From assembly GCF_025917005.1 (NCBI RefSeq), contig NZ_CP078091.1, positions 3,286,001 to 3,350,000 on the forward strand: DNA of 64,000 nucleotides. The letters run 5' to 3'. The translations under genes were made by a program, and so were the position numbers. Below, in pieces: positions 49,658-62,992 of the stretch. Numbering within the stretch: the first letter of the stretch is position 1; the number at the start of each line of letters is the position of its first letter. The notes under the pieces are model-generated. The model was not told the DNA's origin, made no database searches, and saw only the letters and a program-made list of their open reading frames with translations. This DNA is from Porphyrobacter sp. ULC335. Its GTDB lineage: Bacteria > Pseudomonadota > Alphaproteobacteria > Sphingomonadales > Sphingomonadaceae.

Positions 49658-51499
49658 ATGACGCGAATCTTCGTGAGGCTGGCGGCTGTTTTGTGCGCGA
49701 GCACCGCCGTGGCGGGAGGCCCGATCGCGGCAGAAACACCCGCCGCGCCCGCCCCGATCGCGGAACGCCAGCTGGAAGATGAAATCATCTATTTCGTCCT
49801 CCCGGACCGCTTCGAAAACGGCGATACCAGCAATGATCGCGGCGGGCTGAAAGGCGGCGCCTTCGACCACGGGTTCGATCCGACGCACAAGGGCTTCTAC
49901 CACGGCGGCGACCTCAAAGGTCTGACCGCCAAGCTCGACTATATCCAGAACATGGGCGTCACCGCGATCTGGTTCGCGCCGATCTTCAAGAACAAGCCGG
50001 TGCAGGGTCGTCCGGGCGAGGAAAGCGCGGGCTATCACGGGTACTGGGTGACCGACTTCACCAGCGTCGATCCGCATTTCGGCTCCAATGCCGAGTTCAA
50101 GGCCTTCGTCGATGCCGCCCACCGCCGCGGGATGAAGGTCTATATGGACATCATCACCAACCACACCGCCGATGTGATCGACTATGCCGAAGGGCTGGAC
50201 AGCGGCTACGCCTACCGTGCCAAGGGCGATTATCCCTTCTCGCGGCGTGGCGGCACGGATGGGAAAGCGATCAATCCGGGCTTTGCGGGCGACGACAATC
50301 CTGACCCCGCGAACTGGGCGCGGCTGACCGACCCTTCCTTCGCCTACACGCCTGTCGTGCGCGAGGCGGAGCGCAACGTGAAGGTGCCTGCATGGCTCAA
50401 TGACGTCACGCTCTACCATAACCGCGGCAACTCGCACTGGATCGGCGAGAGTTCTGTCTATGGCGACTTCTCGGGGCTGGATGATCTCGCGACCGAGCAC
50501 CCGCGCGTTGTCAGCGGAATGATCGACATCTTCGGGGCCTGGATCGACGATTACGGGATCGACGGCTTCCGGATCGACACGGCAAAGCACGTGAACCCCG
50601 AGTTCTGGCAGGCCTTCGTCCCCGCCATGCAGGCCCGCGCCAAGGCCAAGGGGATCGATCACTTCCACATCTTCGGTGAGATCGCTTACGAAGAACCCAC
50701 CGCAACCCTTGCCGCACAAGTGATGGCGGAAAGCGGTCTGCCCTATGCGCTGGACATGGGTTTTGCCAAGGCGGCCCAGCTGGTCGTCAGCGGCAAGGCC
50801 TCCCCGCGCCTGATGGCCGAATTCCTGCAGCAGGACGCGATCTATCCCGGCGGGGCGAAGACCGCGCTGGGCCTGCCGACTTTCCTTGGCAACCACGATT
50901 TCGGGCGGTTTTCGATGTTCGTGCGATCCATGAGCGGATCGGATGATGAAGCGACGCTGCTCGCGCGGGTGAAGCTGGGCCACGCGATGATGTTCCTGCT
51001 GCGCGGCGTACCAACCGTCTATTACGGGGACGAGCAAGGCTTCATCTCCGACGGCAACGACCAGCTCGCCCGCGAGGACATGCTCCCCAGCAAGGTCGCG
51101 GCCTATAACGACAACAACCTCGTCGGCAGCAGCGCCAGCACCGCGCAGAGCAATTTCGATCCTGCCCACCCGCTCTACCGCCTCGTAACCGAACTCGCCG
51201 CCGCGCGCAGCGCCAGCCCGGCGCTGCGCCGGGGCCTCAGCGAAGTGCGCGCTTTCGAGGAAGCCGCGCCCGGCCTGCTCGCGGTCGAGCGCCATGATCC
51301 CGAAAGCGGACAGCGCGTGATTGCCATGTTCAATACCGGCGCTTCGGCCCTTTCGCGCAATGTCGAGGTAAGCTACCGGACCACCGGTGTCGTGCCGCTT
51401 TTGGGCCAGTGCCCGGCCGCGCTCGCGGCGCCCGGTGCGGTCAAGGTGACGCTTCCCGCCTTCGGCTTTGCCGCCTGCATTCTGGAGACTGACGACTAA
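49658..51499 (+). CDS. Secreted GH13 alpha-amylase (SusG-like)
   Basis: 613 residues with a signal peptide ending near residue 25 (IAAE). It has GH13 residues Asp307 (GFRIDTAKHVN), Glu341 (IFGEIAYEE) and Asp414 (FLGNHDFGR). It resembles the 42501 enzyme around RIDTAKHV and is probably a paralogue, with an extra loop between 165 and 260. Likely an extracellular or outer-membrane starch hydrolase. The following alpha-glucosidase starts on its last base. Confidence 0.92.
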   Translation: MTRIFVRLAAVLCASTAVAGGPIAAETPAAPAPIAERQLEDEIIYFVLPDRFENGDTSNDRGGLKGGAFDHGFDPTHKGFYHGGDLKGLTAKLDYIQNMGVTAIWFAPIFKNKPVQGRPGEESAGYHGYWVTDFTSVDPHFGSNAEFKAFVDAAHRRGMKVYMDIITNHTADVIDYAEGLDSGYAYRAKGDYPFSRRGGTDGKAINPGFAGDDNPDPANWARLTDPSFAYTPVVREAERNVKVPAWLNDVTLYHNRGNSHWIGESSVYGDFSGLDDLATEHPRVVSGMIDIFGAWIDDYGIDGFRIDTAKHVNPEFWQAFVPAMQARAKAKGIDHFHIFGEIAYEEPTATLAAQVMAESGLPYALDMGFAKAAQLVVSGKASPRLMAEFLQQDAIYPGGAKTALGLPTFLGNHDFGRFSMFVRSMSGSDDEATLLARVKLGHAMMFLLRGVPTVYYGDEQGFISDGNDQLAREDMLPSKVAAYNDNNLVGSSASTAQSNFDPAHPLYRLVTELAAARSASPALRRGLSEVRAFEEAAPGLLAVERHDPESGQRVIAMFNTGASALSRNVEVSYRTTGVVPLLGQCPAALAAPGAVKVTLPAFGFAACILETDD

Positions 51500-53151
51500 T
51501 GGCAACCGCACTTGCCGAGACTGCCCCGGCGACCACCACTCCGCTGGCGTGGTGGCGCGGCGCTGTCATCTACCAGATCTATCCGCGCAGCTTCCGCGAC
51601 ACCAATGGCGACGGGATCGGCGACCTTGCAGGCATTGCAGACGGGCTGGACTACATCGCCGATCTTGGCGTGGACGGCATCTGGATTTCACCCTTCTTCA
51701 CCTCGCCGATGAAGGATTTCGGTTACGACGTTGCCGATTACTGTGGAATCGACCCGAGCTTCGGGACATTCGCCGATTTTGACCGGGTCATCGAAAAGGC
51801 CCACGGTCTCGGCCTGAAAGTGATTATCGATCAGGTCTATTCGCACACCTCGGACGAACACGCGTGGTTCCAGGAAAGCCGCGCTGATCGCACCAACCCG
51901 AAGGCCGACTGGTATGTCTGGGCCGATCCCAAGCCGGATGGCTCGCCCCCGTCGAACTGGCAATCGGTGTTCGGCGGTTCCGCATGGCAGTGGGACGGGC
52001 CGAGGAAGCAGTATTACCTGCACAATTTCCTCACCAGTCAGCCCGATCTCAACGTGCACAATGTGGACGTGCAGGACGCGCTGCTGGATGTGGCGCGGTT
52101 CTGGCTGGGCCGCGGGGTGGACGGGTTCCGCTTGGACGCGCTGAACTTCTCGATGCACGATCCCGACCTGCGCGACAATCCGCCGAGCGGCATGCCAATG
52201 GAACTGGTCACGCGCCCGTTCGACATGCAGGTCAAACAATACAACCAGTCGCACCCCGACATTACCGGTTTCCTCGAGCGCATTCGCGCCACGATCGATG
52301 AATTTCCGGGCCGCTTCACGGTCGCCGAAGTCGGCGGGCCGGAGCCGCTGGCCGAGATGAAGGCCTTTACCGAAGGCGGCAAGCGGCTCGATTCCGCCTA
52401 TAATTTCGACTTCCTCTACGCCCCGCGGCTGACCGCGCCGATCGTGCGTGCCAGCCTTTCGCAGTGGAGCGGCGATGCGGGCGAAGGCTGGCCCTCATGG
52501 GCGTTCTCGAACCACGATGCCCCCCGCGCCGTGACCCGCTGGACGCTGGATGGCGACATGGCGCGCGCCGCGCGATTGAACCTGCTGCTGCTGCTGGCGC
52601 TGCGCGGCAACCCGATCATCTATCAGGGTGAGGAACTGGGCCTGCCGCAGGGCGAGGTGGCTTTCGAAGACCTGCTCGATCCCGAAGCCATCGCCAACTG
52701 GCCGCACACGCTGGGCCGCGATGGCGCGCGCACCCCGATGCCGTGGGCTGCGAATGCCCCGCAAGCCGGGTTCTCCAGCGCCAACCGCACCTGGCTCAAG
52801 CTTGACCCCGTCCACACCGGCTTCGCGGTCGACCGGCAGGCCTCTGACCCCGCCTCGACCCTTGGCTTTGCGCGCCAGCTGCTCGCCCAGCGGCGTCAGC
52901 ACCCGGCGCTGGTGCATGGCGATATCGAATTGCTGGACAGCCCGGAGGATATCCTTGCCTTCCTGCGCCACGACGATGCGGGCAGCGTGCTGTGCGTCTT
53001 CAACCTCGGCGAAATGCCCGGCGCATTCAGCGCTCCGGAAGGGCTCGGCGCATTGAGCCTGATCGCCACCGAGAGCGCGGTTGGCAGCGACAGCGTCCCG
53101 CTCACGCTCGCCCCCGGCACCGGCTACTGGGCCGAAGTCCAGGGCGGATAG
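51499..53151 (+). CDS. Cytoplasmic GH13 alpha-glucosidase
   Basis: 550 residues, no signal peptide. WWRGAVIYQIYPRSFRDTNGDG is the classic oligo-1,6-glucosidase/alpha-glucosidase beginning. Catalytic residues are Asp213 (GFRLDALNF), Glu277 (VAEVGG) and Asp340 (FSNHDAPR). It should release glucose from maltose and short maltodextrins after uptake. It shares one base with the upstream amylase stop and lies 6 bp before the LacI regulator. Confidence 0.94.
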   Translation: MATALAETAPATTTPLAWWRGAVIYQIYPRSFRDTNGDGIGDLAGIADGLDYIADLGVDGIWISPFFTSPMKDFGYDVADYCGIDPSFGTFADFDRVIEKAHGLGLKVIIDQVYSHTSDEHAWFQESRADRTNPKADWYVWADPKPDGSPPSNWQSVFGGSAWQWDGPRKQYYLHNFLTSQPDLNVHNVDVQDALLDVARFWLGRGVDGFRLDALNFSMHDPDLRDNPPSGMPMELVTRPFDMQVKQYNQSHPDITGFLERIRATIDEFPGRFTVAEVGGPEPLAEMKAFTEGGKRLDSAYNFDFLYAPRLTAPIVRASLSQWSGDAGEGWPSWAFSNHDAPRAVTRWTLDGDMARAARLNLLLLLALRGNPIIYQGEELGLPQGEVAFEDLLDPEAIANWPHTLGRDGARTPMPWAANAPQAGFSSANRTWLKLDPVHTGFAVDRQASDPASTLGFARQLLAQRRQHPALVHGDIELLDSPEDILAFLRHDDAGSVLCVFNLGEMPGAFSAPEGLGALSLIATESAVGSDSVPLTLAPGTGYWAEVQGG

Positions 53152-53157
53152 GGGCAG

Positions 53158-54195
53158 ATGGCCGATAACCCTCCCTCCTCCTCGGAAGCGCGGCGCAGTG
53201 CCACGCTCGAGGACATCGCGCGCGAGGCGGGTGTTTCGATCTCCACCGTGAGCCGTGCGCTGAATGACAGCCCCTCGGTGAAGCGCCGGACCAAACAGCA
53301 AATCTGGCAGATCGCCCGCGCGCATGATTACGAGTTCCGCTCATCCATGCCGAGCGGGCCAATCGGCGCGGATGCCACTATCGCGGTGGTTGTCCCCGCC
53401 CCGCAGGCGCGCGACAGCCGCGTGTCTGACCCCTTCTTCCTCGAACTGCTCGCCGGGATTGCCGAAGCCGCGCGGGAACGGAATGCCGATTTGCTCATCA
53501 GCCACCTCAGCCCTCGCGCAGGCGGCGATCTCGATTACGCGATGAGCACGAGCCGCGCGACCGGCGTGATCTTCATCGGACAGTCCTCGCTGCACCACGA
53601 ATTCAACGCCTTGGCCGCGCGCGACAACCGCTTCGTGGTGTGGGGCGCGGAGTTTCCGGACGCGCAATATTGCGTGATCGGGTCGGACAACCTCGCCGGC
53701 GGGCGGCGGGCCACCGCCCATCTCGCGCGCCTCGGGCGCAAGGGCATCCTGTTCCTCGGCGACACCGAAGCGCCCGAAGCCGAACAACGCTATCGCGGCT
53801 ACAAGCAGGCGCTCGATCAGGCGGGGATCGGACTTGACGAGGATCTTGTCCTGCCCGCCCATTTCGAGGTGCATTCGGCCGAAGCAGCAGTGCGCAGCGC
53901 GCTGGCGCGGGGACTGCGCTTTGATGCGGTGTTTGCGGCGAGCGACCTTATCGCCATCGGCGCGATCCGGGCGCTGACCCGCTCCGGGATGCGCGTGCCG
54001 GAGGATGTTTCGGTGGTGGGATACGACAACATCCCCGCCGCGCGCCTTGTCACCCCCCAGCTGACCACCATCGATCAGGACGCCAATCTGGCAGGGCGGA
54101 TGCTGGTATCGAAACTGATCGACAAGGGCGCCGGTCCGGCGATCTCGCAGCGGCTGGAAACGAGCCTGCTGATCCGCGAGAGCTGCGGGGGATGA
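53158..54195 (+). CDS. LacI-family transcriptional regulator
   Basis: 345 residues. The N-terminal helix-turn-helix at about 17-38 (LEDIAREAGVSISTVSRALN) precedes a periplasmic-binding-protein-like effector domain (VISDNLAGGRRATAHLARLG-type region, then VSVVGYDNIPAARLVTPQLT). It is probably the local repressor responding to maltose or a derivative, controlling the divergent operons and the TonB receptor. It overlaps the halogenase gene by 4 bp, which ties that gene to sugar control. Confidence 0.93.
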   Translation: MADNPPSSSEARRSATLEDIAREAGVSISTVSRALNDSPSVKRRTKQQIWQIARAHDYEFRSSMPSGPIGADATIAVVVPAPQARDSRVSDPFFLELLAGIAEAARERNADLLISHLSPRAGGDLDYAMSTSRATGVIFIGQSSLHHEFNALAARDNRFVVWGAEFPDAQYCVIGSDNLAGGRRATAHLARLGRKGILFLGDTEAPEAEQRYRGYKQALDQAGIGLDEDLVLPAHFEVHSAEAAVRSALARGLRFDAVFAASDLIAIGAIRALTRSGMRVPEDVSVVGYDNIPAARLVTPQLTTIDQDANLAGRMLVSKLIDKGAGPAISQRLETSLLIRESCGG

Positions 54196-55709
54196 CCGAA
54201 CCCGCGCCGCTCAAGAGCATCGTCATTGTCGGCGGCGGCTCGGCAGGGTGGATGACAGCGGCGGCGCTCGCCCATGCGGTCGGCGGGGCCTGCGCCATTA
54301 CCCTGATCGAAAGCGAAGCGATCGGCACAGTTGGCGTGGGAGAGGCGACCATCCCGCCGATCCGCAACTTCAACCAGCGGCTCGGCATCGACGAAGCAAC
54401 CTTCGTGCGCGAGACGCAGGGCTCTTACAAGCTCGGGATCGAGTTCATCGACTGGGGGCGCAAGGGACATAGCTACTTCCACCCCTTCGGCCAGTATGGC
54501 GCTGAATTTGATAGTGTTCCCTTCTATCACCACTGGATGCGAGAACATCTTGAACGCCGCATTGATGGCCCGATCGACGATTTCTCGATGTGCTGGGCGA
54601 TGGCCAAGGCGGGCAAGTTCGCCCACCCCTCGCCCGACCGGCGGCTGATCCAGTCGACCTTCGACTACGCCTATCACTTCGATGCCGGGCTCTACGCCGC
54701 CTTCCTGCGGCGCTTCGCCGAGGCGCGGGGGGTAAAGCGGATCGAGGGCAAGGTCGTCGACGTCGCACTGCGCGCCGAAGACGGCTTTATCGAGGCTGTG
54801 ACGCTCGACAGCGGCACCCGCATCGAAGGCGAATTCTTCATCGATTGCAGCGGCTTCCGCGGGCTTCTGATCGAAGAGGCGCTGGAGGCGGGCTACGACA
54901 ACTGGCAGCATTGGCTCCCTTGCGACCGCGCCGTGGCGGTGCCGTGCGAACGCGGCGAGTTCACCCCCTACACCCGCTCCACCGCGCGCGAGGCGGGGTG
55001 GCAATGGCGCATCCCGCTCCAGCACCGCACCGGCAATGGCTACGTGCATTGCAGCGAGTTCATTTCCGAGGACGAGGCCGCCGAAACCCTGCTCGCCAAC
55101 CTTGACGGTAAGGCCTTGGCGGACCCCCGCCCCTTGCGCTTTGTCACAGGCAAGCGGCGCGAGTTCTGGAAGCGCAATTGCGTTGCCATTGGCCTCTCCG
55201 CCGGGTTCATGGAGCCGCTGGAATCGACCAGCCTCCACCTTATCCAATACGGCATTCTGCGGCTGATCGCGCTGCTGCCCGACAACACCATGTCGCCCTT
55301 GCTCACGCGCGAATATAATGCCCAGACTTCAAGGGAATACGAGCTGATCAGGGACTTCCTGATCCTCCATTACAAGGCCACCGAACGGGACGATTCCGCG
55401 CTGTGGCGATATTGCGCGGCCATGCCGATTCCGGACAGCCTGCAATACAAGATCGACCACTTCCGCAGCCACGGAATGCTGGTTGCCGACGGGCAGGAGC
55501 TGTTCGCAAATCCCAGCTGGATTGCGGTCTATCTCGGGCAGGGCATCGTCCCGCAACGGGCCCCTGCCCTTGCCGCGATGCGCGTAGGTGTGCCGGTTGC
55601 CGAGCGGCTCCGGCAGATCCGGCAGGCGATGGACGAGGCGGTTGCCACCATGCCATCGCATGGCGATTTCATCGCCCGGCATTGCCCCGCCCCGCCGATC
55701 GCGTCCTGA
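54192..55709 (+). CDS. FAD-dependent tryptophan-halogenase-type protein 1
   Basis: 505 residues. FAD motif GGGSAG is at 14-19. The catalytic lysine equivalent to PrnA Lys79 is Lys80 (GSYKLGIEF), the WxWxIP halogenase signature is at 270-275 (WQWRIP), and the glutamate equivalent to PrnA Glu346 is Glu344 (EPLESTS). All key residues for flavin-dependent halogenation are thus present. The substrate is unknown; no peptide or polyketide synthesis genes lie nearby. It is co-transcribed with the sugar regulator, and a close paralogue lies at 59864. Confidence 0.92.
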   Translation: MTEPAPLKSIVIVGGGSAGWMTAAALAHAVGGACAITLIESEAIGTVGVGEATIPPIRNFNQRLGIDEATFVRETQGSYKLGIEFIDWGRKGHSYFHPFGQYGAEFDSVPFYHHWMREHLERRIDGPIDDFSMCWAMAKAGKFAHPSPDRRLIQSTFDYAYHFDAGLYAAFLRRFAEARGVKRIEGKVVDVALRAEDGFIEAVTLDSGTRIEGEFFIDCSGFRGLLIEEALEAGYDNWQHWLPCDRAVAVPCERGEFTPYTRSTAREAGWQWRIPLQHRTGNGYVHCSEFISEDEAAETLLANLDGKALADPRPLRFVTGKRREFWKRNCVAIGLSAGFMEPLESTSLHLIQYGILRLIALLPDNTMSPLLTREYNAQTSREYELIRDFLILHYKATERDDSALWRYCAAMPIPDSLQYKIDHFRSHGMLVADGQELFANPSWIAVYLGQGIVPQRAPALAAMRVGVPVAERLRQIRQAMDEAVATMPSHGDFIARHCPAPPIAS

Positions 55710-55754
55710 TCAAGCCACACACCACCACCCGAAGGCGATGTTTCACGCAAAACA

Positions 55755-55806
55755 TCGGGCTAAAGGGGGTCTAAGAGGGGTCTAGAGGGGGTCTAACCCC
55801 CGGCTA
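55755..55806. repeat. 11-bp phased GGGGTCTA repeat array
   Basis: GGGGTCTA occurs at 55766, 55777 and 55788, exactly 11 bp apart, and CTA continues in phase at 55760 and 55804. It lies between the convergent halogenase and receptor genes and is the reverse complement of the array at 24035-24089. No gene is seen in 55710-55915. Confidence 0.8.
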
Positions 55807-55850
55807 ACCCGTGCAGGCCCCGCACGAACTGCCGCAAGCACACCCCAAAA

Positions 55851-55883
55851 GGAAAGGGCCCGCCATTGCTGGCGAGCCCTTCC
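55851..55883 (-). terminator. Terminator of the TonB receptor gene
   Basis: On the minus strand GGAAGGGC-tc-GCCA, a GCAA loop, then TGGC-gg-GCCC and TTTCC, ending in CCTTTTG. It is an interrupted stem with a short T-run, 33 bp past the receptor stop. Confidence 0.7.
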
Positions 55884-55915
55884 TGAGACCCTGGGGCGAC
55901 CCGAGGGCGTCGTTA

Positions 55916-58735
55916 TCAGAAGCTCTTGCGGATCGTGAACTGGAAGGTCCGTCCGTAGATCTCGTGACGGCTCGGGAAAGAAACACCGAGCGACTGGGGG
56001 GCCGGCGTGGATCCCGGAGCCCGGTCGAACAGCTCGTTCTCGGTCACGAAGGGTTCGTTGGTCAGGTTGAAGACTTCTGCAAGAACCTGCACCCCGTTGA
56101 GGAAGCTGCCTTCCTTCTCGAAGGTGTAACCGATCTGCGCATCGAGGATCGTCTCGCTCTGCGAGTTTGCCCCTTCGAGCCCGCCTGCAAAGTTCGGAAC
56201 CTCCGACAGGAACGCACCACGATGGCGCGCAGCCAGCTTGGCACGGAAGCCATTCTTTTCGTAGAAGATGTCGCTCGACCAGGTGAGGTCCGAATAGCCC
56301 GGGATCGCAATCGGGGTCTGGCCCGGGGGGTCGATTGTCGCGTCCGAGTAGGTCACCGAATAGAAGCCGCCGAACCCGTCAAGCACATCGACGAGGTCGC
56401 CGAAATTGACGCGCACCGTACCTTCGATCCCGGTGATCGAACCATCCGAGAAGTTGACCGGCCCGTCGAACGCCCCGACCGCGAGTTGCGGCGCAGTGGT
56501 CAGGATGGAGCCGAAGCCCGCGTTCTGGATCTGCTGGGTCAGATCGAGCACGGTCGGCTGATTGACGACCCAGTCCGACAGATCCTTGTGGAAGGCGGCA
56601 ACGATGATCGCCGTACCTGGCGTGAAGTACTTTTCGAACGAGATGTCGAATGACGTCGAACGGTACGGCTGCAAGGTCGGGTTGCCGCCGCTAAGGTTGA
56701 AACACACCAGCGCAGGCGGGTTGAAGCCGATCACCGTATCCGGGATCTGGTCGGCGTTGGTGTCCGAACAGCTCAGCGGATTGACGTTGATGTTCTGGTT
56801 CGCCGCCAGCTGATCGAGCCGGGCACGGGTGATGGTCTTGGCAAAGGCGAGGCGGATGAAGGTATCCTCCATGACCTCGAAACCAAGGTTCACGCTCGGC
56901 AGCCAGTTGTCGTAGCTGGCGTTGACTTCGTTCACGCGGCCGCCACTGATCGTGCCGGTCGAGCTTTGCGAGGTATCGACATAACGCAGACCGATATTGC
57001 CGCGCACCGGCACCGAGCCGAGATCGCCGTCGATATTGGCCTGGATGTAGAAGTTGTGCACCTGCTCATCCACGAGCCATTCGGTATCGTCGGTGGCACG
57101 CTGCAGCGTGTAGGCACCACTGGTCAGCAGGCTTGCCGGATTATAGGCGATGATGTCCTGCCCGATGCCCTTGGTGTTGGTCTGGCCGATAATGAGGTCC
57201 GACGGGATCGCGCGCGAGCTGTTCACGAAGCCGGTGCCCGGACGCAGGAAGGTTCCGTTGTTGTCGAAGTCCTTCGAGCGGTCGGTATAGAGCCAGCCTG
57301 CCACGATGCGGTCGATGAAGCCGCCATCGAACTCCCAATAGGCTTCGGCGCGGAGCTGATGCAGTTCGTCATTGATTTCCGGTTCGCGCAGGAAGCCGAC
57401 CTGGCCCCACCCGCCCGGATCGGTGAGCAGCACGTTGGCCGGGTTGGTGTAATCAATCAGCCCGTCGATGCTGTATTCGCCGTTCGGGTTGAAGTTGAAG
57501 GTCAGCGTGTCGGCCGGGCCGGTGCCGTTGCGGCCGGTGCCGGCATAGGATTCATAATCGACATCGTCGCGGTCGAGCGTCGAATAACCGTAATCGAGCA
57601 CGAAGCCGAGGTTGTCGGTCGCCTTCCACTCAAGGTTGCCGCCCACCGCGAAGATCGAGGAATCCGCGCCTTCGGTGTCGGTCCGCAGGATCGGGAAGAC
57701 GTTGGTATAGGTCGCGCTCTGTGCAAACGGGCCGGAACCCGTCACGGCGCCGACCTGCGCCCCGCCATTGGTGCTCCACGAAGCAATCGGGGTTTCGGTG
57801 CCGCGGAAGATGCCCGAATCTTCGGTGCCCGTGTAGAAGCCGTCGATCGTCAGCGAGAACCGGTCGGTCGGCTCGAACTGAAGCGAACCGGCAATCGAGG
57901 TGCGCTTGAACTCGCGACTCTGCACACCCTGACGCGGGTTATCGCGCGGGAACACGGTGCCGCCCGGGGTGACGGTGCGGGTAACCTGGCCATTATTGGT
58001 CTTCAGCTCGCGCTGGATGATCTGGGTCGGGATCGACTGCATCGTCGCGCCGAGCGACCAGCCGATGGTGCCATCGGCATTCTGGTCGATGTAGCTGGCG
58101 AAGAAGCGATAGCCGTCAGCGCCGAAATCGGGGTTGAGCGAGCCATTGTCGTTGAGCGTGTAGGTGCCCGAAACCGTGATCTGGCGCTTCTTGGAATCGA
58201 GCGGCTTGATGGTGCGCAGGTCGACCGCGCCGGCGATGCCGATGGCGGCAAGCTGCGCGTCACCGGTCTTGTAGACCACGCCGGTGCCGATCAGTTCCGA
58301 CGGGAACTGGTCGAACTCGATCCCGCGGTTGTTGCCGGCCGAAACGACTTCGCGGCCGTTAAGCAGCGCGAGCGAGAAGTCCGGGCCGAGGCCGCGGATC
58401 GAGACCGACTGCGAACGGCCGCGCACGCGCTGGGCGGTGACGCCGGGCAGGCGGGCAAGCGTATCTGCGATCGAAAGGTCGGGAAGCAGGCCAAGGTCTT
58501 CGGAGGTGATCACCTCGACGATCGAAGTGGCCTGGCGCTTCGCATCCAGCGAGGACTGGATCGAGCCGCGGATGCCGGTGACGACGATTGCGTCCTCGCC
58601 TTCGCCCTCGACAGCGGCGGCCGCCTGTTCGTCCGTCTCTTGCGCCAGCACCGGCACGCCGGTTGCCGTCAGCGCCAGAAAGGTTGCGGCCCCGCACAGC
58701 AGGCGCGCGCTTGCATTGATCCCGTTCATTTTCAT
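55916..58735 (-). CDS. TonB-dependent receptor, maltodextrin locus
   Basis: Large outer-membrane receptor of 939 residues, of the type abundant in Xanthomonas, Caulobacter and sphingomonads. The signal peptide ends near residue 31 (VLAQE). The TonB-box region EDAIVVTGIRGSIQSSLDAK is followed by a plug (LGLLPDLSIADTLARLPGVT and VSIRGLGPDFSLALLNGRE) and the barrel, ending FQFTIRKSF. It is expected to import maltodextrin across the outer membrane (MalA-like). It is flanked on both sides by halogenase genes, transcribed toward the first and away from the DUF6445/second halogenase pair. Confidence 0.94.
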   Translation of the reverse strand: MKMNGINASARLLCGAATFLALTATGVPVLAQETDEQAAAAVEGEGEDAIVVTGIRGSIQSSLDAKRQATSIVEVITSEDLGLLPDLSIADTLARLPGVTAQRVRGRSQSVSIRGLGPDFSLALLNGREVVSAGNNRGIEFDQFPSELIGTGVVYKTGDAQLAAIGIAGAVDLRTIKPLDSKKRQITVSGTYTLNDNGSLNPDFGADGYRFFASYIDQNADGTIGWSLGATMQSIPTQIIQRELKTNNGQVTRTVTPGGTVFPRDNPRQGVQSREFKRTSIAGSLQFEPTDRFSLTIDGFYTGTEDSGIFRGTETPIASWSTNGGAQVGAVTGSGPFAQSATYTNVFPILRTDTEGADSSIFAVGGNLEWKATDNLGFVLDYGYSTLDRDDVDYESYAGTGRNGTGPADTLTFNFNPNGEYSIDGLIDYTNPANVLLTDPGGWGQVGFLREPEINDELHQLRAEAYWEFDGGFIDRIVAGWLYTDRSKDFDNNGTFLRPGTGFVNSSRAIPSDLIIGQTNTKGIGQDIIAYNPASLLTSGAYTLQRATDDTEWLVDEQVHNFYIQANIDGDLGSVPVRGNIGLRYVDTSQSSTGTISGGRVNEVNASYDNWLPSVNLGFEVMEDTFIRLAFAKTITRARLDQLAANQNINVNPLSCSDTNADQIPDTVIGFNPPALVCFNLSGGNPTLQPYRSTSFDISFEKYFTPGTAIIVAAFHKDLSDWVVNQPTVLDLTQQIQNAGFGSILTTAPQLAVGAFDGPVNFSDGSITGIEGTVRVNFGDLVDVLDGFGGFYSVTYSDATIDPPGQTPIAIPGYSDLTWSSDIFYEKNGFRAKLAARHRGAFLSEVPNFAGGLEGANSQSETILDAQIGYTFEKEGSFLNGVQVLAEVFNLTNEPFVTENELFDRAPGSTPAPQSLGVSFPSRHEIYGRTFQFTIRKSF

Positions 58736-59108
58736 CAGAAGTCCCCTCCCGCAAGCGCCCTTGAACGACCGCTTTTGCAGTTTTTTTCATAGCCCAAGCT
58801 GAACCTCAGGTAAATCGTCAAATGGCAGAACGATGACGGGGGCCCAAAAATCTTGTAGACGTACTGTTTTTCAAGTGTTTAACTCGTAGCGAATGGAGCT
58901 TACGCCGCCGCAGACATGTCGCCCGGCATGCAAATGTTGCCCGATTGACACAGTTTCCGATCATGCCGCAATGCAGCATGACGCTTCCCGCATGACATCG
59001 TGCGGCTCGACCTCGCCAAACCCTGTCGATCCGACATATTTAATTTATCTTACAGACACTTAACCATTGCCCTTGGAGTGCCTGCCCGAGTTTGTTAGGC
59101 TCCCCGGC
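58736..59108. promoter_or_regulatory. Divergent promoter region, receptor and DUF6445
   Basis: 373 bp without a gene. A purine-rich ribosome site (gggagggg) precedes the receptor ATG on the minus strand. An AT-rich box near 59036-59056 may be the plus-strand promoter. CATGCAAATG at about 58928 and a TTTTGCAG at 58774 are weak relatives of the TTTGCAAA motif. No clear operator was found. Confidence 0.4.
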
Positions 59109-59843
59109 ATGGCCACTTTGCCCACCTCCGCCCATCGAGCGCCCCCCGCCGGATGGAGAATCTCGCTTGCAAATATAGCTGAGGAAGAATTTCCGTCTTT
59201 AAATCAGAAACTTGTGAGCATACCCAATTTTCTCGGGACGCCAGATCACGCCATTGCACAAGCTGTTTTGCAAAATTTTGCAAAGATCACACCGCAATAT
59301 CCGGGCGTCCGCGCGGCGCTCGATCCAACGGTTTGCGATGCGTGGCTTGCGCAGCTCTCGCCGCTGCTTGATCAGTGGTTTGGCGCAGCGCCGCGCGGCT
59401 GGGCGATGCAGGCGTGGTATTCGCTGGTGACGACCGCGCCCGCAGACCTCGCGCCGATCCAGCGCCTGCCGCATGTCGACGGCACCGATCCGCAGCAGAT
59501 CGCCATGATGCTGTACCTCAACAGCGCCGCACATGGGGGGACGGCCTTCTTCCGCCACCGCTCGACCGGGCTCGAGTCGCTGACGGCAGAGACCTACCCG
59601 CGCTATGCCGCAGCGGTGCAGGCCGATTATGGGCGGACCGGCCTGCCGCCCGCCGCCTACCCCACCGATGGCGCGCCGCATTTCGAGCGCATCCATGTGG
59701 CGGAAGGGACATTCAACCGCGCGGTATTCTACCGCGGCAACATGCTTCACAGCGGGGTGATCGACAACGCCGCACCGCTGAGTGCCGACCCGCGCGAGGG
59801 CCGGCTGACCATCAACGCCTTCTTCCGCCCGGTTCAGGGCTGA
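59109..59843 (+). CDS. DUF6445-like protein, putative 2OG-Fe(II) oxygenase
   Basis: 244 residues from ATG 59109; an earlier start at 59067 is open. It resembles DUF6445 proteins that accompany tryptophan-halogenase genes (family recalled from memory). ITPQYPGVRAAL is a typical early motif. I see a possible iron triad, His122-x-Asp124 (LPHVDG) and His214 (NMLHSG), plus an Arg at 232 (EGRLTINAFF) that could bind 2-oxoglutarate, so a dioxygenase fold is inferred. The halogenase gene follows 20 bp later. The first 60 codons are much richer in A and T than the rest. Confidence 0.75.
   Translation: MATLPTSAHRAPPAGWRISLANIAEEEFPSLNQKLVSIPNFLGTPDHAIAQAVLQNFAKITPQYPGVRAALDPTVCDAWLAQLSPLLDQWFGAAPRGWAMQAWYSLVTTAPADLAPIQRLPHVDGTDPQQIAMMLYLNSAAHGGTAFFRHRSTGLESLTAETYPRYAAAVQADYGRTGLPPAAYPTDGAPHFERIHVAEGTFNRAVFYRGNMLHSGVIDNAAPLSADPREGRLTINAFFRPVQG
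59267..59284. promoter_or_regulatory. 18-bp perfect palindrome inside the DUF6445 gene
   Basis: TTTGCAAAATTTTGCAAA is its own reverse complement. It lies in the AT-rich 5' part of the gene and resembles the TTTGCAAA motifs at 49473 and 49606. It is a candidate intragenic operator for the LacI regulator, or coincidence of codons. Confidence 0.4.
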
Positions 59844-59863
59844 GCGGCGACAGGGGACGGGAA

Positions 59864-61387
59864 ATGGACAGACCTGAAGTGAAAAAGCTCGTGATCGTCG
59901 GCGGGGGCACCGCGGGATGGATCACCGCTGCCGCCTTCGCCCGGCTGCTTGGCGAACGGCTGACCATCGAACTGGTCGAGAGCGAGGCGATCGGCACGGT
60001 CGGCGTGGGTGAGGCCACGATCCCGCAGATCATCCGTCTCAACGGCATCCTCGGCCTCGACGAGAACGCCTTTCTGCGGGCGACTTCGGGCACCTTCAAA
60101 CTGGGGATCGAGTTTGTCGACTGGGGGCGCAAGGGCAGCAGCTATCTCCACACCTTCGGCGATACGGGGATGAACCTCGGCAATGTCGCCTTCCACCACT
60201 ATTGGCGGCGCAGCGCGGGCAGCAGCCCGCAGGCCAAGGGGCTGTGGGACTATTCGCTGCACCAGATGGCGGCGGATCAGGCGCGGTTCGGCAAGATGGA
60301 CCGGGTGGGCAACACCGCGATGACGGGCCTCGCCTATGCCTACCACTTCGACGCGAGCCGATACGCCCTGTTCCTGCGCGACTATGCCGAGGGGCGCGGC
60401 GTGACCCGCACCGAGGGCATTGTCGAGAGCGTCGCGCGTGACGGGGAAAGCGGCGATATCACCGCGATCACGCTGAAGGGTGGCACACAGGTCGCGGGCG
60501 ATTTCTTCATCGACTGCACGGGCTTCCGCTCACTGCTGCTCGGCGAGACGTTGGGGGTCGGCTATCAGGACTGGTCCAAGTGGCTCCCCTGTGACCGCGC
60601 GCTGGCGGTGCCGAGCGAGCGGCTGCCGACGCTGGTGCCCTATACCCGCGCCACCGCGAAGGACGTGGGCTGGCAGTGGCGCATCCCGCTGCAGCATCGC
60701 ACCGGCAACGGCCATGTCTATTCGAGCGGCTTCAAGAGCGACGAGGCGGCGGCGGACACTCTGCTCGCGGGGCTTGATACCAAGGCACTGGCCGACCCGC
60801 GCCCGATCCGCTTCACCACCGGACGGCGCGAGACCTTCTGGGCGCACAACTGCGCGGCAATCGGGCTTTCAAGCGGCTTCCTCGAACCGCTCGAATCGAC
60901 CAGCATCCACCTGATCCAGTCGCATGTCAGCCGGCTGATCCAGCTCTTCCCGCGCGCGGGCGATGCATCGGCAATGCGCGATGAATACAACCGGCGATGC
61001 GCGGACGAATTCGTGCAGATCCGTGATTTCCTGGTCCTCCACTACCACCAGACCGAGCGGGAGGATTCGGAGTTCTGGCGCTACTGCAAGAACATGGAGG
61101 TGCCCGACAGCCTCACGCACAAGCTGGCGCTGTTTGCCGCGTCGGGCCGCATCGGGCGCGATGTCGACGATCTGTTCCGCGATGCGAGTTGGGTGCAGGT
61201 GATGCTCGGTCAGGGGATCATGCCAGCCGATTACGATCCGATGGCCGATCAGATCGCGCCTGCACAGCTCGCCGAATTCCTCGCCAATCTGCGCACGCTG
61301 ATCACCCGTGCGGTCGGATCACTGCCGACGCACGAGGATTACCTGCGCCTGCACTGCCCTGCCGACCCGAGCCTGCTGGCGGCCTGA
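59864..61387 (+). CDS. FAD-dependent tryptophan-halogenase-type protein 2
   Basis: 507 residues from ATG 59864; the open frame upstream is a shadow of DUF6445. FAD motif GGGTAG is at 14-19, catalytic Lys79 in GTFKLGIEF, WQWRIP at 270-275, and Glu344 in EPLESTS. Alignment positions match the 54192 protein almost residue for residue, so they are recent or well-conserved paralogues that may act on the same or sister targets. It is co-transcribed with DUF6445, and a strong terminator follows. Confidence 0.92.
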   Translation: MDRPEVKKLVIVGGGTAGWITAAAFARLLGERLTIELVESEAIGTVGVGEATIPQIIRLNGILGLDENAFLRATSGTFKLGIEFVDWGRKGSSYLHTFGDTGMNLGNVAFHHYWRRSAGSSPQAKGLWDYSLHQMAADQARFGKMDRVGNTAMTGLAYAYHFDASRYALFLRDYAEGRGVTRTEGIVESVARDGESGDITAITLKGGTQVAGDFFIDCTGFRSLLLGETLGVGYQDWSKWLPCDRALAVPSERLPTLVPYTRATAKDVGWQWRIPLQHRTGNGHVYSSGFKSDEAAADTLLAGLDTKALADPRPIRFTTGRRETFWAHNCAAIGLSSGFLEPLESTSIHLIQSHVSRLIQLFPRAGDASAMRDEYNRRCADEFVQIRDFLVLHYHQTEREDSEFWRYCKNMEVPDSLTHKLALFAASGRIGRDVDDLFRDASWVQVMLGQGIMPADYDPMADQIAPAQLAEFLANLRTLITRAVGSLPTHEDYLRLHCPADPSLLAA

Positions 61388-61407
61388 CCGTCCCGCAGTC
61401 CGGCCAC

Positions 61408-61446
61408 GAAAAAGGGCGGCGCAGCCATGCTGCACCGCCCGTTTTT
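61408..61446. terminator. Bidirectional terminator between halogenase 2 and cytochrome c
   Basis: GGGCGG-c-GCAGC, cat loop, GCTGC-a-CCGCCC (61414-61440), with AAAAA before and TTTTT after, so it works for both convergent genes. Confidence 0.93.
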
Positions 61447-61468
61447 CTTTGCCCTGAGGCCTGCCGAA

Positions 61469-61972
61469 TTACTTCGACTGGGCTTCCAGATAGGCCACCA
61501 GATCGGCGCGCTTCTGGTCATCCTTGACGCCCGGGAAGGCCATCTTGGTGCCCGGGACGTAAGCCTTCGGGTCCTTGAGGTATTCGAACAGAACCTGCGG
61601 CGTCCAGGTGATGCCGCTGTTCTTGTTGGCGTCCGAATAGCTGAAGCCAGCGACCGAACCGGCGCTGCGGCCGACGACCTTGTGCAGCGACGGGCCGACG
61701 CGGTTCACACCTTCGTCGAACACGTGGCAGGTGCGGCAAGCCGCGAACACCTTTTCGCCCGCTGCGGCATCGCCGGTGAAGCTGGCATATTCAAGCTTGG
61801 CACCGTCGGCAGCAGCAGCAGCCGGGGTGTCGGCAGCAGCCGGGGTTTCAACCGGAGCAGCCGCTTCGGTTTCGGTCGCAGCCGGGGCTTGGGCATTGTT
61901 GCCGCCGCCACAAGCCGAAAGAGTAGCAAGGCTCGCCAGCGCGGCCGCGCCCATCAGGAAATTACGCTTCAT
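61469..61972 (-). CDS. Lipoprotein-anchored class I cytochrome c
   Basis: 167 residues from ATG 61972. The signal has the lipobox LSAC (Cys21), then an Ala/Pro/Glu-rich tether (about 25-58) and a cytochrome c2-like domain. The haem motif CRTCH is at 79-83 and the axial Met144 in PGTKMAFPG. A tethered mobile cytochrome of this kind could shuttle electrons between the bc1 complex and an oxidase or the reaction centre. Since pufC is absent from the puf operon, donation to the reaction centre is plausible but unproven. Confidence 0.92.
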   Translation of the reverse strand: MKRNFLMGAAALASLATLSACGGGNNAQAPAATETEAAAPVETPAAADTPAAAAADGAKLEYASFTGDAAAGEKVFAACRTCHVFDEGVNRVGPSLHKVVGRSAGSVAGFSYSDANKNSGITWTPQVLFEYLKDPKAYVPGTKMAFPGVKDDQKRADLVAYLEAQSK

Positions 61973-62176
61973 GGTCGTTTGTCCTCTGAACACTTTTAAG
62001 TTCCTCCCGCATCCCTGCGGGCCATAAACCAGATTTTCGGGCATGGAAAGCGGGACTTCACGCAAGTTTCGCCCCTCTCCCCAGGTGCCGTGAAGTATGA
62101 ACGCGCAAGCCTGCGATGGGTTTCCACTCGCCGCGCAAAGATTGCCATGCCGCGAAGGGGCGCTATGGTCGCGGGC

Positions 62177-62992
62177 ATGACAAATCTGCCCAAGCACACC
62201 AAGCTCGTCCTCGCCCTGCTGGCGTTTCTCCCGGTCTATTTCGGCATTGCCGCGCTCGGCACGAAATTCGGCATCTGGGACTGGAAGGTGGGGCTGATGG
62301 CGCTGACCTTCACTGGCGGGATGGTTGTGCTGGGGATCACCGCGCTGGCCGCGCTGGTGTCGCTGATTCTCGCCGCGCGCGCCAAGCCGCGCAGCAATGC
62401 GCTGGTGGCGGTGGGGATCATCGGCCTGCTGCTACCGGCAGCGGCGCTGGCGGTGTTCATGGCCGCGGGCGGCAAGGCGGGCGAGAATCCGATCCACGAT
62501 ATTGCCACCGACACCGGCAATCCTCCTGCCTTCACGGCCGATACGCTGGCAGCGCGCGAGGCCGCGGGCGCGAATCCGCTGGCCGATTACCAAACTCCGC
62601 TTGGGCAGATCGCGCTTTACCAGAAGGCCGGCGTTTCGCCCGAGCTGGCGGTGAAGAGCCACGCGCAGATCATCACCGCCCGTTCCGATCGCCCTGCCCC
62701 GCTGCCGCTGGGCGGCGCAAGCAAGGCTGAAGGCGTTGCTGCGGTGGCCGCAGCGATGGGGGCAATGGGCCTCACCGACATTCGTTCGGACGACGTTACC
62801 GGCACAGTCGAGGGCACGGCCGAGACCTTCTGGTTCGGCTTCAAGGACGATGTCGTCGCCCGCGTCGGCGATGCGCAGATCGACTTCCGTTCGGCGAGCC
62901 GTGTGGGCGTCAGCGATCTTGGCGCCAACACCGCCCGCATCATCGACCTGCGCGCCCGCACCGAAACGCTGCTGGGCGCGGCAGCTCGCTAA
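62177..62992 (+). CDS. DUF1499 membrane protein
   Basis: 271 residues from ATG 62177; starts up to 29 codons earlier are open. Three hydrophobic segments lie in the first 100 residues, followed by a soluble DUF1499 domain with NPIHDIATDTGNPPAF, ETFWFGFKDDVVARV and DFRSASRVGVSDLGANTARI. The function of the family is not known. It is a stand-alone gene divergent from cytochrome c. Confidence 0.85.
   Translation: MTNLPKHTKLVLALLAFLPVYFGIAALGTKFGIWDWKVGLMALTFTGGMVVLGITALAALVSLILAARAKPRSNALVAVGIIGLLLPAAALAVFMAAGGKAGENPIHDIATDTGNPPAFTADTLAAREAAGANPLADYQTPLGQIALYQKAGVSPELAVKSHAQIITARSDRPAPLPLGGASKAEGVAAVAAAMGAMGLTDIRSDDVTGTVEGTAETFWFGFKDDVVARVGDAQIDFRSASRVGVSDLGANTARIIDLRARTETLLGAAAR

Follow-up and report, generated by a model that had tools for sequence, protein, structure and literature searches.

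The window, by which we mean the whole 64,000-nucleotide stretch analysed here, contains a DUF6445 gene that lies between a gene for a TonB-dependent receptor and one of two flavin-dependent halogenase genes, while the second halogenase, a LacI-type regulator and two GH13 genes stand beyond the receptor (Table 1). The DUF6445 gene has an ATG start and encodes 244 amino acids, with PF20043 (DUF6445) as the sole Pfam match of the product (220.9 bits, against a cut-off of 24). Neither PF13640 nor Cupin_8 was matched by this protein in the Pfam search, and no NCBIfam model matches it. Its host appears to belong to the Erythrobacteraceae, with Erythrobacter and Porphyrobacter as the nearest named relatives (identities of up to 79%). 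The protein is probably cytoplasmic, since it has no signal sequence that is obvious by eye. The ~90 bp upstream of the receptor gene (58736-58830 of the window) are kept across many related loci, with identity of up to 91%, and possibly represent a promoter, leader or operator; a consensus promoter was not found between the divergent receptor and DUF6445 genes.

Table 1 Features of the DUF6445 locus, with positions in the window
Feature	Position	Strand	Evidence
Two GH13 alpha-amylase-family genes	49658..51499, 51499..53151	+	PF00128
LacI-type regulator	53158..54195	+	PF00356, PF13377
Second flavin-dependent halogenase of the locus	54192..55709	+	PF04820, 644.1 bits
TonB-dependent receptor, divergent from the DUF6445 gene	55916..58735	-	TIGR01782, 521 bits; PF00593, PF07715
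DUF6445 protein, predicted Fe(II)/2-oxoglutarate oxygenase	59109..59843	+	PF20043, invariant HxD...H...R, AlphaFold2, VIA-align
His122-Val-Asp124 codons, predicted iron ligands	59472..59480	+	H and D invariant in 127/127 rows; coordinates counted from 59109
His214 codon, predicted distal iron ligand, opening model strand 214-216	59748..59750	+	127/127 rows; model secondary structure
Arg232-Leu-Thr234 codons, predicted RX(S/T) binding the C5 carboxylate of 2-oxoglutarate, before the last strand	59802..59810	+	Arg in 127/127 rows; Thr in 122, Ser in 5
Flavin-dependent halogenase, 20 bp downstream of the DUF6445 gene	59864..61387	+	PF04820, 605.2 bits

Among solved chains, those closest to the downstream halogenase are 9luq, 6y1w and 6frl, and those closest to the second halogenase are 6y1w and 6frl. 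The GxGxxG and WxWxIP motifs characteristic of flavin-dependent halogenases, together with the catalytic Lys and Glu, are invariant in all 10 aligned halogenases. Roles for the catalytic Lys and Glu of flavin halogenases are described in the available part of PMC5945002.

Conserved residues and predicted fold

An earlier note had picked out His122 and Asp124 (LPHVDG), His214 (NMLHSG) and Arg232 (GRLTIN), each of which stands exactly where it was placed, as following the order and approximate spacing of the iron and 2-oxoglutarate (2OG) ligands of the prolyl-hydroxylase superfamily. The order holds, and the spacing is only roughly right: the interval from Asp124 to the distal His is 84-93 residues in 73 diverse DUF6445 rows, versus 55-71 in 17 PF13640-type proteins, and the interval from this His to the Arg is 16-19 in the same 73 rows.

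Homologues of the window protein were matched in 131 of 135 loci fetched. Eight rows, comprising a distant clade and spurious overlapping ORFs, were set aside, and the short fragment matches L062 and L063 were dropped before the main clade was aligned with MAFFT; L063 (Peribacillus, 17 residues, E 5e-4), the sole match outside Proteobacteria, was taken as chance. The resulting alignment has 127 rows (126 loci plus P0001), with the window's own protein present twice, as L001 and P0001. His122, Asp124, His214 and Arg232 are identical in all 127 rows, as are Pro65, Gly66, Gln118, Pro121, Thr145 and Tyr208. At position 234, 122 rows have Thr and 5 have Ser; at position 136, 120 have Tyr and 7 have Phe. 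A 60% identity filter left 74 rows, of which 73 were aligned (L111 was left out, and P0001 stood for L001). Only 10 of the 244 positions are invariant in this diverse alignment, and they are the same ten; the chance that four residues named beforehand should all fall among them is approximately 1.5e-6 (calculated by hand). The order of the residues alone could be due to chance; their conservation is not.

An AlphaFold2 model of the window protein, run with 28 homologues, has a mean pLDDT of 90.1 and a pTM of 0.88, with Arg232 directly preceding the last strand (233-241). When this model was compared with solved structures using VIA-align 2, the top match was OGFOD1 (Z 14.1, 176 residues, 2.9 A), and lysyl hydroxylase LH3 (Z 12.4), the prolyl-4-hydroxylase (P4H) of Pseudomonas putida (12.4), Tpa1 (12.2), PHD2 (11.9), PasI and PolD also scored highly. 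Among the 50 matches listed (Z 11.0-14.1), the titles are those of 2OG enzymes or oxygenases in all but a few cases, and these few (Mimivirus L230, HalB and 3dkq) were placed in the group on general background or as 'putative oxygenase'. Similarly, 2OG enzymes lead the Foldseek matches in the PDB (SnoN at 5.5e-5, with ColD, Tpa1 and AndA), though the TM-scores by query length reach only 0.31-0.48 and the local alignments, which are long, have rmsd values of 5.7-9.6 A. Both the fold of the model and the four invariant residues support the 2OG-Fe(II), prolyl-hydroxylase-like class that had been suggested from the ligand pattern, and on the model we consider DUF6445 very probably to be a family of Fe(II)/2OG oxygenases.

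Gene neighbourhood of DUF6445

In 35 of 36 related loci a halogenase gene lies within 1.5 kb of the DUF6445 gene, with a GH13 gene in reach in 29 and a LacI gene in 30. Across 90 loci from more diverse genomes, a halogenase stands within 1.5 kb in 51, and a halogenase or similar receptor in 58, leaving 32 with neither. When 34 chosen main-clade loci were considered with 8 kb flanks, halogenases and receptors were each present in 21, SapC in 13 and Cupin_8 in 10, and 11 loci had neither halogenase nor receptor; genes for an ECF sigma factor and FecR occur in 5 of the 34. Main-clade DUF6445 is present in 34 of 199 sampled genomes of the host's family (E < 1e-30), every one of which has a strong halogenase match (cut-off 1e-20, lists read by hand), versus 116 of the 199 overall (hypergeometric P ~1e-9, kinship ignored). 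Consequently, the coupling with a halogenase that had been proposed for this operon is borne out as a gene neighbourhood, both by distance and by co-occurrence. A functional link of DUF6445 with halogenase and receptor loci is probable for this clade, and is not universal; since 32 of the 90 loci (1.5 kb) and 11 of the 34 (8 kb) have neither halogenase nor receptor, the substrate of DUF6445 may be independent of the halogenase.

The order TonB-dependent receptor - halogenase - SapC - Cupin_8 - halogenase - DUF6445 recurs (L220, L236, L237, L238 and others); it is complete in L220 and L236, and ECF sigma/FecR or GH3 genes lie near some of these loci. In three related genomes (L221:8966-10852 (+), L234 and L245) a DUF6445 gene with no nearby halogenase is found near thiC or a same-cluster gene.

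Halogenases were matched 11 times in the host genome, spread over four places, all of which have a TIGR01782 receptor alongside the halogenase. Two of these places, at 3.12-3.14 Mb and at 3.24-3.26 Mb, are clusters that contain one Cupin_8 gene each, while the fourth, at 2.93 Mb, has one halogenase and lacks both DUF6445 and Cupin_8. Given DUF6445 in the window and Cupin_8 in the two clusters, three of the four places hold one HxD...H enzyme. When 10 relatives of the Cupin_8 neighbours were aligned, all 10 had HxD...H, and the closest solved relatives of the host's Cupin_8 enzymes are FIH, JMJD5 and JMJD7, which are protein hydroxylases. SapC occurs once in the host genome, away from the halogenase places. 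Beside the receptor of the 3.24-3.26 Mb cluster, an ORF (L302:2648-3550 (+)) begins with residues that on visual inspection resemble a GH10 xylanase, and so this cluster may serve xylan uptake.

With the distant clade included, DUF6445 is found in 53 of the 199 genomes of the host's family and in 61 of 118 genomes of another sampled family of the same phylum. Distant bacterial members keep HxD...H in 9 of 9 rows, and none of six distant-clade loci has a halogenase, receptor, SapC or Cupin_8 gene within 8 kb flanks. In a profile alignment of 92 ORFs from the distant clade and viral relatives, 58 show HxD...H; in the remaining 34 the HxD columns are gapped or carry different residues. None of the 92 lacks the distal His. 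The host itself has a second, distant copy (G000:C1:2465688-2466266; L002, L235; 52.4 bits) that keeps HxD...H and has no halogenase or TIGR01782-type receptor within 8 kb. Distant relatives are also encoded by many IMG/VR viral contigs (L136-L215), and matches in BFVD include cyanophage proteins. Furthermore, phrog_1644 ('minor coat protein') is matched by all 73 DUF6445 rows and phrog_274 ('DNA endonuclease V') by 59 of them; given the predicted fold of DUF6445, both labels could be mistaken, and the two families could themselves resemble 2OG oxygenases.

Candidate reaction and substrate

The best explanation of the whole, in which we place good confidence, is that DUF6445 is a 2OG oxygenase family with a double-stranded beta-helix of the prolyl/lysyl-hydroxylase kind that works in receptor/halogenase loci. 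By analogy with established knowledge of the superfamily, His122, Asp124 and His214 would bind iron, and Arg232, Thr234 and Tyr136 would hold the 2OG carboxylate. The enzyme would act in TonB-dependent-receptor loci beside flavin halogenases of the BrvH/Xcc4156 type, and the likeliest predicted reaction is hydroxylation of a polypeptide side chain, or of another bulky receptor-tied substrate. A polypeptide is a reasonable guess because DUF6445 folds nearest to prolyl and lysyl hydroxylases, because its alternative partner in such loci is of the FIH/JMJD type, and because halogenases of this type are described as having open sites. That the open-site halogenase may also modify the substrate of DUF6445 is a tentative further step, less likely than not to be right.

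A small molecule brought in through the receptor is nearly as likely a substrate as a polypeptide, and we regard a 2OG oxygenase that acts on such a compound (e.g. an indole, another aromatic or an imported sugar derivative) as a serious minority candidate. Small-molecule 2OG enzymes are high both in Foldseek (SnoN, HygX, KanJ, AndA) and in VIA-align (PasI, PolD), the locus has GH13 enzymes and a LacI regulator, its receptor belongs to a subfamily that is often near sugar genes, and BrvH converts free indole (PMC5945002, available part). However, in VIA-align it is protein hydroxylases that match best (OGFOD1, LH3, PHD2 and the P. putida P4H), and the Cupin_8 alternative resembles FIH/JMJD proteins. 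Moreover, in the parts of PMC7336383 and PMC5945002 available to us, Xcc4156 and BrvH are described as having open active sites and as inactive on free tryptophan, with peptides suggested as substrates that such sites might admit.

The possibility that DUF6445 has kept the fold and metal site as a sensor or binding protein, and is not a catalyst, we consider very unlikely. DUF6445 is linked to regulators and receptors in several loci (including the ECF sigma and FecR genes mentioned above), and some distant viral relatives are without HxD in the profile alignment while keeping the distal His, yet every row of the bacterial main clade has the full catalytic set, with the Arg and the Thr/Ser for 2OG binding, as expected of a working enzyme. 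That the HxD...H...R order is a coincidence in some other fold is scarcely credible. In its favour, DUF6445 resembles known 2OG families only weakly in profile comparisons; against it stand a confident model, 2OG enzymes throughout the structural matches listed and four invariant residues.

Returning to the polypeptide reading, no conserved target residue was found in the receptors compared (26 and 51 in two sets). The first set comprises 26 strong TIGR01782 receptors from six genomes; a halogenase stands within 1.5 kb of 14 of them, and these can be told apart from the remaining 12 by eleven alignment columns, versus a mean of 0.075 columns and a maximum of 2 in 200 runs with shuffled labels (kinship ignored). 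Of the 51 receptors from other loci, each at most 3 kb from a halogenase, 41 retain Asn580. We rejected the columns as a general target, as the best two have opposite residues in 10 of these 51, and because the signal fails in other loci the separating columns look like clade markers. Small ORFs in the gaps 55710-55915, 58736-59108 and 59844-59863 include none that is widely conserved (at best 11 of 36 loci), and widely matched small ORFs in 61388-61990 were discarded as lying inside or overlapping another gene (the minus-strand ORF 61469-62197).

A broader reading is that, in Alpha- and Gammaproteobacteria, the loci of TonB-dependent receptors provide a cytoplasmic set for polypeptide modification, made up of open-site flavin halogenases and one of two unrelated kinds of protein hydroxylase, DUF6445 (P4H-like) or Cupin_8 (FIH/JMJD-like), often with SapC, that would halogenate and hydroxylate one protein or peptide of the uptake system. 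We consider this unlikely on present evidence; if true, a protein or peptide target would explain why native substrates of BrvH/Xcc4156-type halogenases, stated to be unknown in the available part of PMC7336383, are missing among free small molecules.

Our literature search found no paper that names DUF6445 and none that joins 'tryptophan halogenase' with 'SapC', and a DUF6445-halogenase pairing was not found described in the available parts of PMC5945002, PMC8269204 and PMC7336383, or in the other papers retrieved, as judged from brief records. DUF6445, a Pfam family of unknown function, thereby gains a predicted enzyme class within a known superfamily, and halogenases of the BrvH/Xcc4156 type gain a candidate partner. 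Two kinds of oxidising enzyme probably share one bacterial uptake locus, and if both modify a single polypeptide of the receptor system, this would be new bacterial protein chemistry tied to nutrient uptake.

Comparison with known systems

Among solved chains, BrvH, Xcc4156 and 9luq come nearest to the two halogenases of the locus, whereas no DUF6445 partner is mentioned for either in the available parts of PMC5945002 and PMC7336383. Enzymes of the Cupin_8/JmjC type (relatives of FIH, JMJD5 and JMJD7) share with DUF6445 the HxD...H arrangement and the same kind of halogenase/receptor loci, but have no visible sequence relation to it (hhalign probability 2.3).

The relation to 2OG-FeII_Oxy_3 (PF13640) is faint at the sequence level: 10 of the 73 DUF6445 members match it weakly (best E 0.0055), and a weak hhalign alignment with PF13640-type proteins (probability 34, E 4e-4) covers the distal His and Arg and not HxD. 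Unlike these proteins, DUF6445 carries a long insert after HxD and ahead of the distal His; a helix at 163-177 of the model falls in this stretch. This insert, by lengthening the interval from Asp to His, probably hides the kinship of DUF6445 to 2OG families from profile searches, and would account for the weak PF13640 matches, for the restriction of the profile alignment to the distal half and for sequence searches of solved structures (PDB) that returned no useful match.

The P. putida P4H, solved in complex with EF-Tu, and PHD2 resemble DUF6445 in fold (Z 12.4 and 11.9) but have no sequence-level match to it, and the neighbours of DUF6445 are halogenases and TonB-dependent receptors. OGFOD1 and Tpa1, which are ribosomal prolyl hydroxylases, share both the fold (Z 14.1 and 12.2) and the HxD...H triad, at approximately 15% identity. 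According to the available part of PMC4396695, the iron ligands of OGFOD1 are His155, Asp157 and His218, the last on strand VII, while a 2OG analogue is contacted at its C5 carboxylate by Tyr169 and by Arg230, which belongs to an RXS motif. The intervals differ, with 84-93 residues from Asp to His in DUF6445 versus 61 in OGFOD1 by residue numbers, and 16-19 from His to Arg versus 12. Nevertheless, when matched by sequence position, Tyr136 lies 14 residues past His122, as Tyr169 lies past His155, and Arg232-x-Thr/Ser234 resembles the RXS motif of OGFOD1.
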